This document shows positions 7,919 to 18,441 of a stretch of DNA of 64,000 nucleotides, one piece after another. Both the position numbers and the translations under genes were made by a program. Source of the stretch: Malania oleifera (Eukaryota > Streptophyta > Magnoliopsida > Santalales > Ximeniaceae); assembly GCF_029873635.1 (NCBI RefSeq), contig NC_080422.1, positions 4,444,001 through 4,508,000 on the forward strand. The letters run 5' to 3'. Under the pieces are notes generated by a model, which searched no databases, was not told the origin of the DNA, and saw only the letters and a list, made by a program, of their open reading frames with translations. Within the stretch, counting starts at the first letter, position 1; each line of letters starts with the position of its first letter.

Positions 7919-8459
7919 GACAAATCCTATATATGTACACTAGTGCTTGTTGCTAAACCTTCTACCACTACTGTCATATCTCATAATCAACACCTCTGAA
8001 GAAAATTATGATTTTGGACTTCTTAATTATGATGATAAAAAAAATAAAAGATGGAGGAGATCGAGCCAAACCCATAACCACTACATCACAGCATCTAATG
8101 ATGACATAGTGATGAAATTAGGATTAAATAGTTTCCAAGGTGTATAGTCTAAAGATAGGTTGGAGCTTTCAGTTTTTCTAAACAATTAGGAGAAGAGAAG
8201 CATATATATAAGTGCTAAAAACGACAAATAAAACAAAATCAAAGTTGAATGTAATTACTTGAACAAGACGGATCAAGCACCCAAAAAATGCTTTGATCAA
8301 AGCCACTGCTGATGATCTCCACTAGTATAATTTAGCCATTAATTAATTATATCTTCAGAAGAAAGAAGAAGAAGAAGAAGGGAAACGATAGTTTGGAAAG
8401 AAGAAATTAAGGCTGCAAGGATGGTACTGTCACACGTCTTTCTAAATTTTTGGCACTCA
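7919..8459. other. Spacer without recognised gene
   Basis: AT-rich non-coding DNA between two LTR elements. A 66-codon frame at 7,947-8,147 has no recognisable similarity or context. Bases 8,455-8,459 (ACTCA) are the left target duplication of the next element. Confidence 0.55.
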
Positions 8460-10785
8460 TGTGATGACCCAAAAAAGATATATACGATTAAAGCATAATA
8501 ATAATAAAATAATAAAAATGGTCATTAAGTTAATATCAATACAGAAGTGTTTTTCTGTAGGATCCTTGATTCTATGTTTGATGTCTAAGAAAGACCTTGT
8601 CATAGCGAGTGCTCAGAGATCATTGCGGCTCAGCCGCTCCCTAGAGGTTGGCCTGGTTAAAATGGAATTTCATAGGATAAACAAGATAGATACTGTTTAT
8701 ATACGTAAATAAGTATATAAAATAATATTTTGACTGACATAATTTGTAGAAATAGATGATAAAATAATAAAAATATAAGTATCCTATGCGGGGCCCACAT
8801 GAGTCCCGAAGACCTGTAAAGGTTTACACGAGTCTCTTAACTGTGTAGGACTCATAAAATCGTATGAAAATTATTGGAGTTACACAGGATCTATTTGGGT
8901 CTCGAAGTTATGTGGGGCCCACAAGACCATGTGGTGCTCACATGAGTTTTCAAAATTAAAATTTAATTTTTGTTCAAAAATAAATAATAAAATAAATAAA
9001 TATTAAAAATAGTTTAAAAGTAATAGCAATGATAATAATAATGATAATAATGATTAAGAAAAATAATAAAATAATTAATAAACTAATTAATTAATTAATT
9101 AGGTAAGTAATTAATTAAAAATTTATTTAATGGGAATGGTGACAAGCACTCTCACATGGCCTCCATCCCCATCCCATACTCAACCCATACCTTGCCTATC
9201 ACTTGCCCATTCTTTAATTTAAAAAAATTATAATTTCACCAATCTCCCCACACTTTTATAAATTTTATTTCTTCTCCAAAATTTTCCTATAAATAGGAAA
9301 CTCTCAACCTTCATTTTTCACAACAATTTTTCCAAGGAAAAGAATGATTAGTGAGTGAAAGAATTTGTGGTGGAGAGAATTTTTGAGTAAGTTCTCACTC
9401 ACCCACTCTTTCCGATCTCATTTCTTAGAGATAGTTATTGTGTTCGTAGTACAAGGTAAATGAATAAGGTAAGTAAATTTGATTATGTTAATTTTTTTTT
9501 ATTTAAAATTCATACCCGAGTTTATTTTGTAAGTAAATTTCAATTATGTTACTTACTTCCATAAAATTTTCATGAGTTTATTTTTACGTATATTTAATTA
9601 TACCAGTTCTATCTTTAATATACTTGCATTTATTTTTGGGTTAAGAAATGTTCTAATTCTCTCGGGTAAATTTTCAGCATTTCTTTTTATTAAAAAAAAT
9701 TATTATATATATTTTTAACACAAAAATTGTGTGGCATAAGTTTATTTCTACGTTACATTATTCATGAAAATATGAGTAAAGATGAGATTTTCACAAGATT
9801 ATTTTAAATTGCATAAATTATAATAAGATGGTTTTAAAACCCCTTATGGCAAAGTAAGTTCAAAGTTACAGATGTTCGGTACCGTAACTTAAAGTTTAAA
9901 TGGATTAGAGTGCACTCACACTATATACATAGTGGTTATTTATGTTAGTGGATTTTTCTTGAGTGCACACCTGGTTCCGGACCAAGACTTAATAAGGAAA
10001 ATTTCACTTAATGTTTATGTACGCTGATTTAGTTTGGTCGACTAGCCAGCTAAGTTCAGTCTTCGGACCGCACAACCCAGTCATAGGGGTAAACATGACT
10101 TACGACTAATAGGCCTAATGGTGGTTTTTTACAGTATATGTTTATACATATTTAATTACGTGTACAGAGTTATTAATGAGTTGAAGGAAAAGTATAAGTT
10201 TATATAAAAAGGGTCATTCTTGTGCCTAAATGACGATTTAAAGGAAACGTATAAGGAAAAGTATATATATGTATATAGTTAAATATTTTTATAGTTTTAA
10301 AGTTAAAAGTTTAATTTAACGGTTACAATATATGGTTATTAAATTTTACTGTTATAGTTGATGGTAAAAGTTTTATGCGGAATTTTTTTTTTAAAATTTA
10401 TATTTATTCTAGAAGCAATTTTGAAGTTATAGTATTAAATATTATTTTACGAAATTTTTAAAAGCTCATTTTGGCCACACACTAATAATAATCTTATTTA
10501 CTTATTGAGCGTTGTCTCACTCCAATCATATTTTTATTTCAGATAACTCTGAAGGGCATGTCGGAAATCAAGCTTAGCAAGCATGCGAGTGGGGATAGAA
10601 AAATAAAGATTGATTAGAAATATTAGTATGATGTCAGATATTTATGCTTGTGTAATTTTTCTTCTTTTAAAATAAATGATTGTAATATGCATAATTAATG
10701 CTCTGGTTTAATAATAATTGAGTTTATTTGCTTCAACTGTAAATCAATAGTAAAAAGTAAATATCCTAAGGATTGAGGTATTACA
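8460..10785 (+). repeat. 5' LTR of the homeobox-carrying element
   Basis: It starts TGTGATGACCC and ends ..GAGGTATTACA. A promoter-like CTATAAATA lies near 9,290. The shared ..TGAGCGTTGTCTCACTCC block is near 10,505, and a CGCACAACCCAGTCATAGGG motif is near 10,068. It lacks the TCGTCGACGA palindrome cluster of the other long LTRs. Confidence 0.9.
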
Positions 10786-11892
10786 TTTGGTATCAGAGCA
10801 ATAGGTTATAGGTTCTGTAGACTTTAAGAAATAATTTTACCAGAGCATAGGATATAGGTTCTGCATACTCTAATATATAAATTTTACCAGAATTTAGGTA
10901 TAAAACATGATTTGGGTAGGATTGGATAGTTTAGAATATTTATTTTAGTTTGTTATATTATTATACGTGAATAATAGATTTATGATTTTAAAATAATATT
11001 TTATCATTGTTTAAGAATGGATCTTAAAGATAGTAGTATTGGAGGAAATGAGATTAATGTAAAGGCTCCCAAGGACAGGTAATAATCATAAATTCTCTAA
11101 GAAAAATTATAGTATTATTAAAGACACGTTAATTAATTTAAATATGTTATATATGTTTGTATAAATACGTACCCATATTGATGATTCATAATTAGTTGTC
11201 AGATGCATTAATAATTTAAAATTTATATATATAAATAAAATAATATAATAATATTTGAGATTTATTTATTTTCATTGTTATTATTTTCACTAAATATATA
11301 AGAAATAACACATTAGACCCTACTGAGTTTAGAAGTACTACACATACAAATAGATATGAACAAACGGTCTATTATGAAATCTGAATTTATCCAAAATTTC
11401 TTTGCATGTATAAGTTGGATACGAATATGTATTTTTACATTACATATTCAGTTATCAACAAAACATTCAAACTTAATTTAGGAATATATATTTTGATAAA
11501 ATCTTTAATTTTAATTTTGTATTAGTTTATAAGGAATTAAATATAATTTTAATATTACTTATTATAGCTAAATTCAAATATATATATATATATATATATA
11601 TTCCTTTAGCATGTGCAAGTTAAATATGTATATCTGTTTTTTTTCCCATTGCATATTTAGTTTCCATCAAGTATTCAAGTTTGATTTAGGAGTACAAATT
11701 TTGATGAAATCTTTAATTTTGTATAAATTTATAAAAGTTAATACAACTTAAATTTTTCTATATTAAAAAAAAAAAGTTTATATAGTAAAAATTTCATTAA
11801 TGAAAGTAATATAAAAATTAACTAATTTCTTTCAAATAACTAACCAATGTCAAATCATCAATTGGCTAAACATGCCCAACATATATTTGATC

Positions 11893-11942
<50 letters not shown>
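11893..11942. repeat. (TAA)n microsatellite
   Basis: About 16 uninterrupted ATA/TAA trinucleotides inside the element interior. A second, (TA)n, tract lies at 11,577-11,602. Confidence 0.9.
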
Positions 11943-11977
11943 GAATATATATATATAAAAGGGGTACTCTTATAGTT

Positions 11978-12143
11978 AAAAAAAAAAAAAAAAAAACCTC
12001 ATGGGTGGAAATTATCGACTATGGCTCACTTACCTCCGAAGCAAGGCTAGGGCATGAGACCACTTGAGCATAGTGGGGACTCGAACTCACGATCACATGG
12101 ATGCATGACTGGTTCCTTACCATTAGGCCACCCACCCAAGTGG
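11978..12143 (-). mobile_element. tRNA-derived SINE-like insertion
   Basis: On the minus strand the head reads GGGTGGCCTAATGGTAAGG (box A-like) followed by GTGAGTTCGAGTCCCC (box B-like). An unrelated body follows, then a T-rich tail of ~18 (the A run at 11,978-11,997 on the plus strand). This arrangement is that of a Pol III-derived plant SINE. Family not assigned; no target duplication checked out by eye. Confidence 0.6.
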
Positions 12144-12229
12144 TGACCTAAGGATGAAATTAATTATAGTTAAAACATTAATAAAGATGTAGAAACATAA
12201 AAAGAACCTTGAGTCCGCAAATTTTGCAA

Positions 12230-12690
12230 TACGTGTCGTTCGTTCGATTTTCGCGACACATATCGTTCTCCCTCGATTTTTGAAAAAAATGCGTCACTCG
12301 AGGCACACGTTGCTCTCTCTCGATTTTTGCGACACACATCGTTCTCCCTCGATTTTTTGCAAAACGCATTGCTCGATATCTGTGACATGCGTCGTTCTCT
12401 CCCGATTTTCGCGACACACATTGTTCTCCCTTGATTTGTGCAAAATGTGTGCTCGATATCCATGACACGCGTCGCTCTCTCTTGATTCTCGTGGCACATG
12501 TCACTCTCCCTCGAATTGTGTAAAATGCGTGCTCGATATTCATGACACACGTCGTTCTCTCTCGATTCTCGCAACGCACGTCGTTCTCCCTCAATTTGTG
12601 CAAAACGCGTTGCTTGATATCTGTGACATGCGTTGCTCTCCCTCGATTCTCGCAGCACATGTCGCTCTTTCTCTTGATTTCCACAACACG
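12230..12690. repeat. 80-bp tandem array upstream of the homeobox ORF
   Basis: The motif GCTCGATATC(T/C) recurs at about 12,373, 12,453, 12,533 and 12,614, a period of 80-81 bp, with about 5-6 units in all. Each unit is itself built of ~27-bp subunits sharing TCG(T/C)TCTCCCTCGATT followed by a variable CGACACA or GTGCAAAA arm. The array is much richer in GC and CpG than its surroundings and ends about 12 bp before a TATA box. It contains no stops in several frames simply because of its periodicity; I see no protein here. Confidence 0.85.
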
Positions 12691-12702
12691 TGGTCATTCC
12701 CT

Positions 12703-12710
12703 TATAAAAA
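12703..12710 (+). promoter_or_regulatory. TATA box of the homeobox ORF
   Basis: TATAAAAA stands 119 bp ahead of the ATG at 12,829, between the tandem array and the ORF. A start near 12,735-12,745 would give a ~90-base leader. The leader holds no upstream ATG that I can see. Position and sequence are what a plant Pol II core promoter would show; activity is not demonstrated. Confidence 0.5.
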
Positions 12711-12828
12711 GGGTCTGCCCTTCTCGAACTCTAAGCATCACAGCTTTCTATTATCTTGAACAATCACATTTCGGTTTGTAGTGATTAGCTCTTCCCAACT
12801 TGTCTCTTAGTTGTCTCATTACTCGAAA

Positions 12829-13380
12829 ATGTTGTCAAATCACCCAACTTCCCAAGTTGTCGAGAGTAGCACTAGATCATCGATCCAAAGATGGAAACCC
12901 AGTAAGGCACAATTGGAGATTTTAGAGGAGGCCTTCCACAGTAGTCAAGGGGAACTCCTTTTTGTGGAGCGTACTATCTTGTTTGCAGCACAACTCCGAC
13001 GGTATGGTCTAATCGAGCTAAGAAATATACGCTTTTGGTTTGAGAACCGTAGTCATAGGCGGGGATCAGTTGGAGAAGCCACTATCTCAACTACTACCCC
13101 ATCAATTCTCCATCTTACCTCCTCCACCACTATCGCCCCAAGCAGTGCCCCTGCCATTCTTCCAACCCTCATCCCTATCGAGAATATTACGTCTATGAAA
13201 CTTACAACTAATATCACACCAATGAGTCATACCCCTTACAATGACAATATCACAGTCAACACACTAAGGGTTTTGGATAATGCTAGCCTACTCCACCATT
13301 GCAAGGAGGTCCAATGCGCGTTGAAAATCATATACGGGCCACCAATGACTCGTTATGATCATCCCCACCAAATGCCATAA
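12829..13380 (+). CDS. WUSCHEL-related (WOX-like) homeodomain protein, captured in an LTR element
   Basis: This is an intronless ORF of 183 codons. Residues 18-79 align with a WOX-type homeodomain. Helix 1 lies around RWKPSKAQLEILEEAF (21-36), the extended WOX loop and helix 2 end in AAQLRRYG (53-60), and recognition helix 3 is NIRFWFENRSHRR (66-78). The usual WFQN reads WFEN, so recognition-helix residue 50 is Glu rather than Gln. The rest is Ser/Thr/Pro-rich. The same frame beyond the ORF (13,381-13,551) encodes a WUS-box-like VLSLFST and ends in an EAR-like DVDLRL just before a TAA, so the parent gene was probably a longer repressor-type WOX. WOX proteins are nuclear factors of stem-cell and embryo patterning. 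The ATG at 12,829 is the first in frame after the TATA box. It lies in sense with its host LTR element. Clade within WOX is not assignable by eye; function of this copy is unknown. Confidence 0.75.
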   Translation: MLSNHPTSQVVESSTRSSIQRWKPSKAQLEILEEAFHSSQGELLFVERTILFAAQLRRYGLIELRNIRFWFENRSHRRGSVGEATISTTTPSILHLTSSTTIAPSSAPAILPTLIPIENITSMKLTTNITPMSHTPYNDNITVNTLRVLDNASLLHHCKEVQCALKIIYGPPMTRYDHPHQMP

Positions 13381-13613
13381 AGGGAAGAGGGCAGCTCTTC
13401 CTCCCTCAACGAACAAACGGGCGTTCTCTCCCTTTTTTCGACCCAAGCCGGCGACATTATAAGAGGTCAACTCTGTCAAGAAAGAACGCAGGCGGTTAGC
13501 AGTGACATCGCTAGCACTTCAATAGATGTTGACGTTGATCTAAGGCTCTAAAGGCTAGATTTCATTTCATTTTTATACATATATTTTTAATTTATATGAC
13601 ATGTATAATATAA

Positions 13614-13616
<3 letters not shown>

Positions 13617-13675
<59 letters not shown>
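13617..13675. repeat. (TA)n microsatellite
   Basis: A long nearly pure TA tract between the homeobox ORF and the polypurine tract of the same element. Confidence 0.9.
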
Positions 13676-13683
<8 letters not shown>

Positions 13684-13909
13684 CCTTTTCCACATCTTCT
13701 GAATTTCTTTTCCATTTCAACCCTTATTAGACCGACGATTCACACTTCAATTCCCAAAAGAAAATATTTCACCAAATTGACCCTCAATCTATTTTAAGAT
13801 TTAGTCAAATCATTAATAAATTTACTCTTTCAAATAGCGCAACCAATTATACAGTACTCATTTTAAATTAACAAATTTCGAGGACGAAATTTTTATAAGG
13901 ATGAGAGAA

Positions 13910-16245
13910 TGTGATGACCCAAAAAAAGATATATACGATTAAAGCACAATAATAATAAAATAATAAAATTGGTCATTAAGTTAATATCAATACAGAAGTG
14001 TTTTTCTGTAAGATCCTTGATTCCATGTTTGATGCCTAAGAAAGACCTTGTTTTAGCGAGTGCTCAGAGACCATTGCAGCTCAGTCGCTCCTTAAGGGTC
14101 GGCCTGATCAAAATGGAATTTCATAGGATAAATAGGGTAGACACTGTTTATATACGTAAATAAGTACATAAAATAATGTTTTCACTGACATAATTTGTAG
14201 AAATATATAATAAAATAATAAAAATATAAGTATCCTATGCGGGGCCCACAAGACTGTGTGGGGTCCACATAAGTCCCAAAGTCGTGTGGAGGTTTACACG
14301 AGTCTCGAAACTGTATAGGGCTCATAAAATCGTATGAGAATTATTGGAGTTACGTAAGATCCATTTGAGTTTCAAAGTTGTGTGGAGCCAACAAGACCAT
14401 GTAGGACTCACATGAGTTTTTAAAATTTAAATTTAATTTTTGTTCAAAAATAAATAATAAAATAAATAAATACTAAAAATAGTTTAAAAGTAATAGCAAT
14501 GATAATAATGATTAAGAAAAATAATAAAATAATTAATTACCTAATTGATTAATTAATTAGGTAAGTAATTAATTAAAAATTTATTTAATGAGAATGGTGG
14601 CAAGCACTCCCACATGGCCTTCATCCCCATCCCATACTCAACCCATACCTTGCCCATTCTTTAATTTTAAAAAATTATAATTTCACCAATCTCCCCACAC
14701 TTTTATAAATTTCATTTCTTCCCCAAAATTTTCCTATAAATAGGAAAGTCTTAACCTTCATTTTTCATAACAATTTTTTCAAGGAAGAGAAGGATTAATG
14801 AGTGAAAGAATTTGTGGTGGAGAGAGAATTTTTGAGTAAGTTCTCACTCACCCACTCTTTCCGATCTCATTTCTTAGAGATAGTTATTGTATTCGTAGCA
14901 CAAGATAAAAGAAGAAGGTAAGTAAATATGATTATTTTAATTTTTTTTTATTTAAAATTCATACTCGAGTTTATTTTGTAAGTAAATTTCAATTATGTTA
15001 CTTAGTTCCATAAAATTTCCATGAATTTATTTTTTCGTATATTTAATTATACTTATTCTATCTTTAATATACTTGCATTTATTTTTGGGTTAAGAAATGT
15101 TCTAATTCTCTCGGGTGAATTTTTAGCATTTCTTTTTATTAAAAAAAAATTATTATATATATTTTTAATACAAAAATTGTGTGACATGAGTTTATTTTTA
15201 CGTTGCATTATTCATGAAAATATGAGTAAAGATGAGATTTTCACGAGATTATTTTAAATTGCATAAATTATAATAAGATGATTTTAAAATCTCTTATGGT
15301 AAAGTAAGTTCAAAGTTACAGATGCTCGGTACCACAATTTAAAGTGTAAATGGATTAGAGTGCACCCACACTATTTACAGAGTGGTTATTTATGTTTGTG
15401 GATTTTTCCTGAGTGCACACCTGGTTCCAGACCAAGACTTAATAAGGAAAATTTCACTTAATATTTACGTACGTTGATTTAGTTTAGTCGGTCAGCCAGT
15501 TAAGTCCAGTTTTCGGACCGCACAACCCAGTCATAGGGGTAAACATGACTTACGATTAACAGGCCTAATGGTGGTTTTTTACAATATATGTTTATACATA
15601 TTTAATTACGTGTACAGAGTTATTAATGAGTTAAAGGAAAATTATAAGTTTATATAAAAAGGGTCATTCTTGTGCCTAAATGACGATTTAAAGGAAACGT
15701 ACGTATAAGGAAAAGTATATGTATGTATATAGTTAAATATTTTTATAATTTTAAAGTTAAAAGTTTAATTTAACGGTCACAGTATATGGTTATTAAATTT
15801 TACTGTTATAGTTGATGGTAAAAGTTTTATGCAGAATTTTTTTTAAAAATTTATATTTATTCTAGAAGCAGTTTTGAAGCTATAGTATTAAATATTATTT
15901 TACGAAATTTTTAAAAGCTCATTTTGGCCACACACTAATAATAATCTTATTTACTTACTGAGCGTCGTCTCACTCCAATCATATTTTTATTTCAGATAAC
16001 TTTGAAGGGCATGTCAGAAATCAGGTTTAATAAGCATGCTGGTGGGAATAGAAAAATAAAGATTGATTAGAAATATTAGTATGATGTCAGATATTTATGC
16101 TTGTATAATTTTTTTTCTTTTAAAATAAATGATTGTAATATGGATAATTAGCGCTTTGATTTAATAATAATTAAGTTATTTGTTTATACTGTAAATCAAT
16201 AGTAAAAAGTAAATATCCTAGATCCTTTAGGGTTGGGGTATTACA
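13910..16245 (+). repeat. 3' LTR of the homeobox-carrying element
   Basis: Same start (TGTGATGACCC) and end (..GGGGTATTACA) as the 5' copy and nearly the same length. Differences between the two copies are mostly transitions, as expected from methylated plant repeats. Confidence 0.9.
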
Positions 16246-18441
16246 ACTCAAGCTGAGACAGTGAGTTTAGAGCCTTTTCTTGTAATAAGCATGTAATGAC
16301 TACTACGTGACTCATTCCTATTGAAGGTTGGTCATTGTACTTGAATAAGGATCAACCAAAGTAAAATATATTAAAGCAAAAGAATCCATCCATCTATTGC
16401 CTCCTACTGTTACAAACTCACATTTTTGAAATTTCATTAAGGCATTATTTGACAAATAAATAGCGCTTGAAATTCATAGTGGTGACGCCAAATAAGTACC
16501 AAGAATTCTGCATGCACAAATTGTATGATCTACTACAGTCAAGAAAAATAAATAAGTGACTTGAAATTCCTTTTATGTCTTACAAAGAACCTTGACATAT
16601 TATACAAATACTTTTTTGAGATTCAGTGTTGAGTGCGTTTAATTTAATTATAAGAGATAAGGATTTCCTAACTGTAGATTTATTTTTCCCTCTATCAACT
16701 ACCCCAACTCCTCATTCGAAAATTTCTTTCAAGCTCAAGAGTATTATATACTAAAATTTCAAATATCTTCTTCAATCTGAATGCAACTCTTTAGATAACA
16801 TAAACTAAAGAATTGTTTGGAATGCTTATGTAGAAGTGTTGAATTTAATAAGTGTTGATAATAAGTATTGAATTGGAGAAACCCTAAAAATTATAAATGG
16901 CATTTGATTGTATTTAAATAAGTGTTATTATTAGTTTTAAATATAATTTAAATTAGAATTATTAATATTTTTAGTTAACAATTTCAATAATAATTATTTT
17001 TAATTAATATTTAAATATTTTCTACTACATAAAATAATATAAGATTTCCCTTTTTAATTAAAAATAATCTTGTTATTAGTGTATATTTATAATGTATGAC
17101 TGTTATATTAATTTATAATAAAAATAATATTTTTAATTAAATTAAAAAAATTAATCTATTCTACATGAAAATTTAAATTAATAATGATTCTTTGCTCCAA
17201 AAATTTAATTTTTTATTATTATTATTATAATAAATAAATATATAAGGAGAACACAAAAAATTGAAACGGTTCATGTTACAAATTGCAGTTAAAAAGATTT
17301 TTGAAAAAAGGAATACTTAGGATTATTAATAAAAAAAATTTGAATGCACAATAAATCTCGCTGCTTAGTCCAACGAGATTTAAATGTTAGGCCAATCGAG
17401 TGTTAATGCGTGACAGCGAGATTTGCTCGGAAAAAAAGCTGAACCTGACACGTGGCAAATCTCATTATTTAGTGTAACGAGATTTGTTGAATTTTACTGG
17501 ACCAAGAAGCGAGATTACATGAACATTGTTCTGAAAATAATTTTCATAAACAAAATATTATTTAGTATATTATTATAAATTAATAATAAACTGAGAAAAA
17601 ACTTGAATAAAACAGGTGCAAATATTGTCCTTTTTTCCCCCCTCTTCAATGCGAGCAGCTGAGTTGGCAAGCCCCAACCCCAGTTCAACCCGGGTTTGGC
17701 CGAGTCTCACAGGTCAATCCCGATTTAAGGCATTTCCAGTTATTGGTGGCTGACTGGACCAGCCCGAATACCGGTTCGGTCAAATCCAGTTAGATTGGTC
17801 TGTCTAGTTCGGATTTAGGCGCCCAGTGAGAAGAGCAAAACAAAAGAAAATGACAAAAAGAAAGAGCAAATGTGACAAATCAAGCCACCTGATGGCTGAA
17901 TCCCATCGGAAAAATGAAATTTGTACAATTCATAATTAAAAGAGGCTTTGAATTTAGATCTGTATAAATTTTGTCTAAAAATTTATTTCCGTAATTGTGT
18001 TGCAGAGAACTCAGCTTGGATCATTTAAGACCTAACAAATTTTGAAGCTCGGTGTTGAATAATGGCAAGCATCAAAGTTGCCATTCCGTCATTACAAAAT
18101 TGTAGAACAAAATAAAAACGCAGCATACAAACACACCATCATCCTCAATTTCTCACCCAAAATAATCTACATAAACCTTTCATATTTTACTTAATACATT
18201 GGCACCAAGCATTTCAGCCGGTTACTTGTAATGGCACATACCCGCCAGAAAACATTTGGATTTTCTTGATATATTAAGAGTACAACAGAAGACTCAACTT
18301 TTTTAACCGCAACTTCTTTTGATGATGCATACCATATCAAACCCATTGCCTCCAGCTGCTAATCATCGCCCTTCAACAGGGGCTATCAGCCTTGAATGGT
18401 AAGGTTGAGTTATAGCCTGGCAGACAACTTCCAAAACTTCG
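16246..18441. other. Intergenic spacer with two small hairpin repeats
   Basis: No gene was recognised. At 17,350-17,510 the arms AAATCTCG..CGAGATTT and AAATCTCA..CGAGATTT each enclose a 13-base loop, and further CGAGATT words lie nearby. A GC-richer patch (17,650-17,830) rich in CCGGTT/CAGTT words may be a degraded repeat. The right end (about 18,050-18,441) is the likely 3' untranslated region of the minus-strand gene that ends at 18,442. Confidence 0.5.

Follow-up and report, generated by a model that had tools for sequence, protein, structure and literature searches.

Among plant elements that carry host gene sequence, Bs1 of maize has a low copy number. In the accessible part of its description, it contains parts of three genes with metabolic or transport functions, all of them incomplete (PMC13317346). 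The accessible part of a survey that counted 672 LTR-captured genes in rice and 1343 in sorghum describes such capture as common, and the words homeobox, homeodomain, transcription factor and WUSCHEL are absent from its main text as far as accessible (PMC3726574). A review of the aORFs of plant LTR elements argues, in its accessible part, that antisense aORFs are not transduced genes; its main text as accessible contains no word starting with “homeo” and no “transcription factor” (PMC7264820). Known captures by LTR elements are mostly fragments without a role for the element. Literature titles and abstract openings, with few subscription journals covered, gave no report of an LTR retrotransposon that carries a WOX or other homeobox gene.

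We analyzed a window of 64,000 nucleotides from Malania oleifera (C6:4444001-4508000 in genome-search coordinates), in which a WOX-like ORF lies inside an LTR element. Gene capture by an LTR element is of the ordinary kind; the cargo, its completeness and its constancy are unusual. We consider it probable that the element belongs to a high-copy, non-autonomous LTR family which has a retro-captured WOX gene as its sole recognisable protein gene, is mobilised in trans, and whose protein is selected as a repressor in active lineages. The basis of this reading is sequence analysis. The copy in the window is itself an old, disabled member of the family.

The full element spans 8460-16245 and is an LTR retrotransposon by its two LTRs, target-site duplication, primer binding site (PBS) and polypurine tract (PPT). 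It is flanked by a perfect 5-bp duplication, ACTCA, at 8455-8459 on the left and 16246-16250 on the right. The 5′ LTR (TGTGATGACCC ... GGTATTACA, 8460-10785, plus strand) aligns with the 3′ LTR (13910-16245, plus strand) with 93.3% identity over 2301 aligned bases (K2P 0.071), and the internal region between them measures 3124 bp. The PBS-like sequence TGGTATCAGAGC (10788-10799, plus strand), which we take to be of the initiator Met tRNA type, has an exact match at the same position in 8 of 20 fetched copies. It lies at the start of an A+T-rich leader with 20% GC and without a recognisable protein (10786-11978, plus strand), followed by a SINE-like piece on the minus strand with a poly-T end (11979-12146). 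tRNA-type A and B boxes were recognised by eye in this piece; ARAGORN found no tRNA in it. Tandem repeats of about 80 bp (12211-12700, plus strand; 47% GC, CpG o/e 1.73) precede the TATA box TATAAA (12703-12708, plus strand) located 5′ of the ORF. Downstream of the coding frame the 3′ internal region (13553-13909, plus strand) ends with the PPT AAGGATGAGAGAA. The GC content is 38-47% in the ORF, its 5′ flank and the tandem repeats, and 20-28% in the leader, the 3′ internal part and the LTRs.

Neither gag nor pol is found among the ATG-start ORFs of at least 120 aa that overlap the element in the window; these are the WOX-like ORF and two minus-strand ORFs over the tandem repeat. The element is thus non-autonomous (LARD-type), with no gag-pol between its LTRs. 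The LTRs, the target-site duplication and the ORF list agree with the initial annotation, which had described an LTR element lacking pol genes that holds the ORF in sense between PBS and PPT. Its proposal that the ORF has its own TATA box is likewise borne out, as 23 of the 24 copies examined have TATAAA at position -126 or -125 relative to the ATG. The minus-strand ORFs at 12211-12700 (160-175 aa) look like repeat artefacts, and the repeats themselves, situated just 5′ of the TATA box, form a possible promoter or enhancer array.

The ORF in the window comprises 183 codons on the plus strand (12829-13380) and ends with a TAA at 13378-13380. Past this TAA the frame resumes (13381-13552, plus strand) and encodes the WUS-box-like motif VLSLFSTQ and a terminal DVDLRL before the next stop at 13550-13552, so that the full frame has 240 codons. 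The 183-codon ORF, with a TAA at codon 184 and an in-frame continuation, represents this frame in truncated form. The ORF first annotated is present as described, but it is not the whole gene, since the complete frame also encodes the WUS-box-like and EAR-like motifs; the end given for it, 13551, falls within the in-frame continuation. The window copy can at most make the homeodomain part. The frame is uninterrupted in 5 of the 20 fetched copies, with 240 or 243 residues, and complete frames in other lineages have 229-239 residues. Complete copies contain a homeodomain, a WUS-box-like motif and a terminal EAR-like DLRL in the order seen in WUS and WOX5.

In a protein-level search of the genome, the best 150 of 1024 candidates were 84-100% identical, and 121 were without and 29 with stops; these counts were made by eye on the best-scoring matches and do not stand for the share of intact frames in the family at large. 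Blocks of equal score among these 150 matches (eight rows at 478 bits and 94%, four at 453 and four at 433.9) suggest very recent copies, although what they share is scores and not shown DNA identity. One transposon copy has already been annotated as a gene, LOC131144967.

The homeodomain occupies residues 20-78 of the ORF. Pfam PF00046 matches the window ORF with E=1.5e-4; its score of 22.0 bits narrowly misses the curated cut-off of 22.9. A phmmer search of the PDB retrieved STENOFOLIA (1.8e-6) and WUSCHEL (2.1e-6). The profile search, on whose failure the initial annotation would have been given up, thus returned a homeodomain, and the WUSCHEL-related assignment holds. Helices are predicted at residues 26-38, 45-59 and 64-81 (mean pLDDT 57.5), and Foldseek ranks 1-11 are all WUS and STENOFOLIA homeodomains, with a best E of 0.01 and none at or below 0.001; the structure model was built with an alignment that included WUS proteins. 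The domain is strongly diverged, with a mean identity of 36-43% to nine host WOX homeodomains (WOX1 43%, WOX13 42%, WUS about 39% and WOX5 37%). Helix 3 reads WFEN in the element versus WFQN in host WOX proteins, a Q/E exchange at what we take to be homeodomain position 50. From its WOX-type homeodomain, the predicted protein can be assigned to the WOX family.

A genome search for further copies, made with the 724-bp frame, scored 40 matches out of 689 candidates. Of these, 39 cover positions 1-724 and one covers 3-724, and their identity is 89-100%, the window copy being among them. Twenty were fetched with their flanks. In all 20, which come from many chromosomes, the 5′ flank, the ORF, the 3′ internal part and the start of the 3′ LTR are contiguous. 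The SINE-like piece is present in 19 of the 20, a leader match beginning at position 1 or 2 in 18 and a 5′ LTR match in 17. Being fixed in the family, the SINE-like piece must have been captured before the family spread. The distance from leader to ORF in the 18 leader-bearing copies is 1765-2157 bp, and is therefore too short for gag-pol. The parts follow one another in the same way in L043, an old copy with a broken frame and an ORF of 76% identity.

The presence of the whole ORF in the 40 scored matches and the shared layout of the 20 copies make the homeobox ORF a constant part of the family, and the multicopy spread that the initial annotation had considered is borne out. For the same reason the idea that a WOX retrocopy entered a single LTR element separately and later has practically no probability left: the ORF and its flanks are constant in 20/20 copies, the layout extends to the old copy L043, and members devoid of the ORF next to a locus-specific insertion, the pattern named beforehand as fatal to the capture claim, were not what the copies revealed.

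LTR divergence in nine elements, including that of the window, is K2P 0.068-0.112. Target-site duplications in other copies agree at 5/5 bases in L024, 4/5 in L010 and L018, 2/5 in L019 and 1/5 in L022; L019 is a tandem array, and exact-match ends were missed in 15 of 20 copies. Copies 5.4-5.8 kb apart resemble head-to-tail arrays of the type LTR-internal-LTR-internal, seen directly in L019, and array-like spacing occurs at C6:84607005-84624262, C7:96280977, C4:124242635 and C1:68242943. About 5.8 billion sequences were searched twice at the protein level (507 and 5878 candidates), and each search returned one relative, P0001 of Malania oleifera. A plasmid search yielded nothing similar, and a search of viral contigs gave five pattern matches, of which none was confirmed.

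Which proteins would move such an element? Over 50-52 bp comprising its PPT and LTR start, the element matches two other Ty3-type elements of the window at 88% and 84.6% identity, and one of these two carries a chromodomain. The gag-pol proteins of a related Ty3/gypsy element would most likely act in trans, which the sequences allow us to infer strongly. Among the 40 best leader matches of 1264 candidates, 20 lie no more than 5 kb upstream of a WOX place, among at least 45 such places (40 from the ORF genome search and five picked by eye), and no autonomous partner was identified among these 40 matches. At 41797-62659 the window contains two oppositely oriented Ty3/gypsy elements that have long repeats, and one of them lies within the span of the other.

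The origin of the cargo can be approached through its C-terminal half. An HMM of 118 WUS orthologs matches all five complete proteins tested, with E from 4e-17 to 4e-9 at a set size of five sequences, and the C-terminal part contributes weak scores only. A separate profile of the WUS C-terminus gave 2.2-12.8 bits on 12 tails; none of 3000 shuffles was as good for L049, and none of 3000 for L024, while four of the 12 tails scored under the best shuffle. A motif pattern, written after the motif had been seen, fits 10 of the 12 tails versus 0 of 6000 shuffles. The motif, VLSLFPTQ-like and 3′ of the homeodomain, has V, I or an F-changed first residue and not the T of TLXLFP. DVDLRL or a near variant forms the end of 13/13 complete frames examined, so that by its sequence the C-terminus is EAR-like, as in the WUS/WOX5 subgroup; the host WOX5 has PPLDLRLSFI. 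A poplar study, in its accessible part, gives the WUS-box to modern-clade members only and limits the EAR-like end to WUS and WOX5 (PMC4023605).

The host loci L029, L037, L038, L039, L040 and L042, whose introns were inferred without transcripts, have the homeodomain in one open segment and the WUS-box in another; by resemblance we named L029 WUS, L037 WOX1, L038 WOX2, L039 WOX3 and L040 WOX5. In the element both lie within one frame, and it is therefore probable that a modern-clade WOX gene was copied here in processed form. We thus strongly infer that the source was the spliced mRNA of a modern-clade (WUS/WOX5-like) gene, as far as sequence can tell, and that this mRNA would have been joined to the element RNA by template switching during reverse transcription. 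Capture of a host gene, as first proposed, is supported. A plain mRNA copy brings no TATAAA, and the TATA box must therefore have been gained later or have come with a genomic piece.

From the homeodomain alone one cannot say which of the modern-clade genes was the source. The protein search and tree envisaged for placing the ORF did give WUSCHEL-type matches, but the clade could not be fixed: the element sits on a long branch and none of four placements is rejected (p-AU 0.28-0.42). This result, together with a homeodomain identity to host WOX13 (42%) that is close to that of WOX1 (43%) and WUS (39%), would also suit a homeodomain from another clade such as WOX13, to which WUS-box-like and EAR-like motifs were added by later evolution. 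We judge this improbable, since both motifs occur in order, a combination that is rare among shuffles, and since the poplar distribution cited above ties them to the modern clade and to WUS and WOX5, respectively. L054, considered as a locus closer to WUS, was rejected because it is the host WOX13 gene. Additional, diverged copies of the homeodomain exon of host WUS occur at loci L030-L036 (C1:44.65-44.69 Mb, C13:48.3 Mb and C435), with stops listed in L031, L033, L035 and L036. The host gene L042 is WOX-like but unusual: it has WFQNRRSKKNKKNK and the WUS-box-like LLLFPLQ, and by eye falls outside the usual subgroups.

Is the protein maintained by selection, or are the frames intact merely because the copies are young? 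The latter reading, in which a captured WOX cDNA is copied along with the element as a neutral passenger, fits the window subfamily, where variation in 21 copies is about equal at the three codon positions and therefore no constraint is seen. It also fits the dN/dS values of 0.42-0.86 among five complete subfamily-I frames and three others (neutral median about 0.7). Six frames from other lineages were compared in 15 pairs, with L049, L050 and L051 taken from the equal-score blocks. Nine pairs are compatible with neutrality (P 0.055-0.787) and the pair L048-L049 gave P 0.010. The five pairs that include L051 have dN/dS values of 0.24, 0.26, 0.33, 0.32 and 0.42, where about 0.74 is neutral; none of 400 neutral simulations was as low for four of them and P was 0.020 for the fifth, but these pairs share one branch and hence are not independent. 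Of the private changes of L051, 17/34 are at third positions, an excess (P 0.033).

In a set of 13 frames, pN/pS is highest in the first 18 codons (0.84), followed by the linker (0.69); the tail has 0.56, whereas the homeodomain and the last 13 codons of the tail have 0.39 each. These values are descriptive and carry no significance test; that the linker exceeds both the homeodomain and the C-terminal end speaks against a passenger. So does the finding of complete frames in several diverged lineages, given that a neutral frame at such distances stayed open in 5-40% of simulations with frameshifts uncounted, although frames were sampled by similarity to an intact protein, which favours intact ones. 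Overall the picture is mixed: purifying selection appears to have acted in lineage L051, and we regard a purely neutral passenger as somewhat unlikely.

WUS is nuclear, binds DNA through its homeodomain and represses through its WUS-box and EAR-like end. By analogy, the complete protein of the element would enter the nucleus, bind DNA via the homeodomain and repress via its WUS-box-like motif and EAR-like end. With moderate confidence, we propose that in active lineages the protein would be made and selected as a DNA-binding repressor that helps the element. The many copies with an unbroken frame imply that the element may use a plant developmental regulator for its own ends. Such a protein might help the element in meristem or germ-line cells; alternatively, it might act on the chromatin or transcription of the element’s own copies. 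In 12 tests on the LTR and internal region, motifs that we took to be WUS-type binding sites, TAATTA included, showed no enrichment. Eleven of these tests gave P of at least 0.475; TAATTA occurs 20 times in the 3′ LTR versus 9.8 expected (P 0.040), which is not significant after 12 tests. A more specific and rather doubtful proposal is that the WUS-derived homeodomain protein, descended from a host stem-cell regulator and altered at a DNA-contact residue (Q to E, WFQN to WFEN), is selected in active lineages as a propagation factor in meristem or germ-line founder cells, so that insertions would be transmitted. This resembles animal retroviruses, some of which carry growth regulators.

Could the element instead act by RNA, its WOX sequence giving rise to antisense or small RNA by which the WOX genes of the host are silenced, as the initial annotation had suggested? 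The high copy number would suit such a role, but the sequence searches argue against it. When 14 element ORFs were compared with 16 host WOX loci of about 3 kb each, exact matches reached at most 15 nt, and no 21-mer of the window ORF lies within three mismatches in host L029, L037 or L040, which makes siRNA against host WOX unlikely; we consider action by RNA very improbable.

The Malania family can be set beside several known systems. In the order of WUSCHEL and WOX5, the element protein has a homeodomain followed by a WUS-box-like motif and a terminal EAR-like motif; unlike these two, the ORF is transposon-borne and without introns, has about 39% and 37% homeodomain identity to the two, respectively, and carries WFEN rather than WFQN. 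DUX4 of primates is likewise an intronless homeobox gene multiplied within a repeat, but the repeat is a tandem macrosatellite and not an LTR element, and the gene is an animal double homeobox. Transposon copies can inflate the number of homeobox genes counted in Malania, LOC131144967 being an example. A constant extra ORF within an element family also recalls the aORFs of plant LTR elements, as described in the accessible part of the review (PMC7264820). In common with Bs1, as far as its accessible description goes, the Malania family is a plant LTR element with intron-free host gene sequence in sense between its LTRs; it differs from Bs1 in carrying one developmental regulator, with its domains in order, as the sole recognisable gene in hundreds of candidate copies (PMC13317346). 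In this family, with its hundreds of candidate copies, a transcription factor of the master-regulator type is thus a constant component. If active, the family would offer a direct route to ask whether transposons manipulate plant stem-cell fate, and would be a plant counterpart of the retroviruses that carry host regulators.
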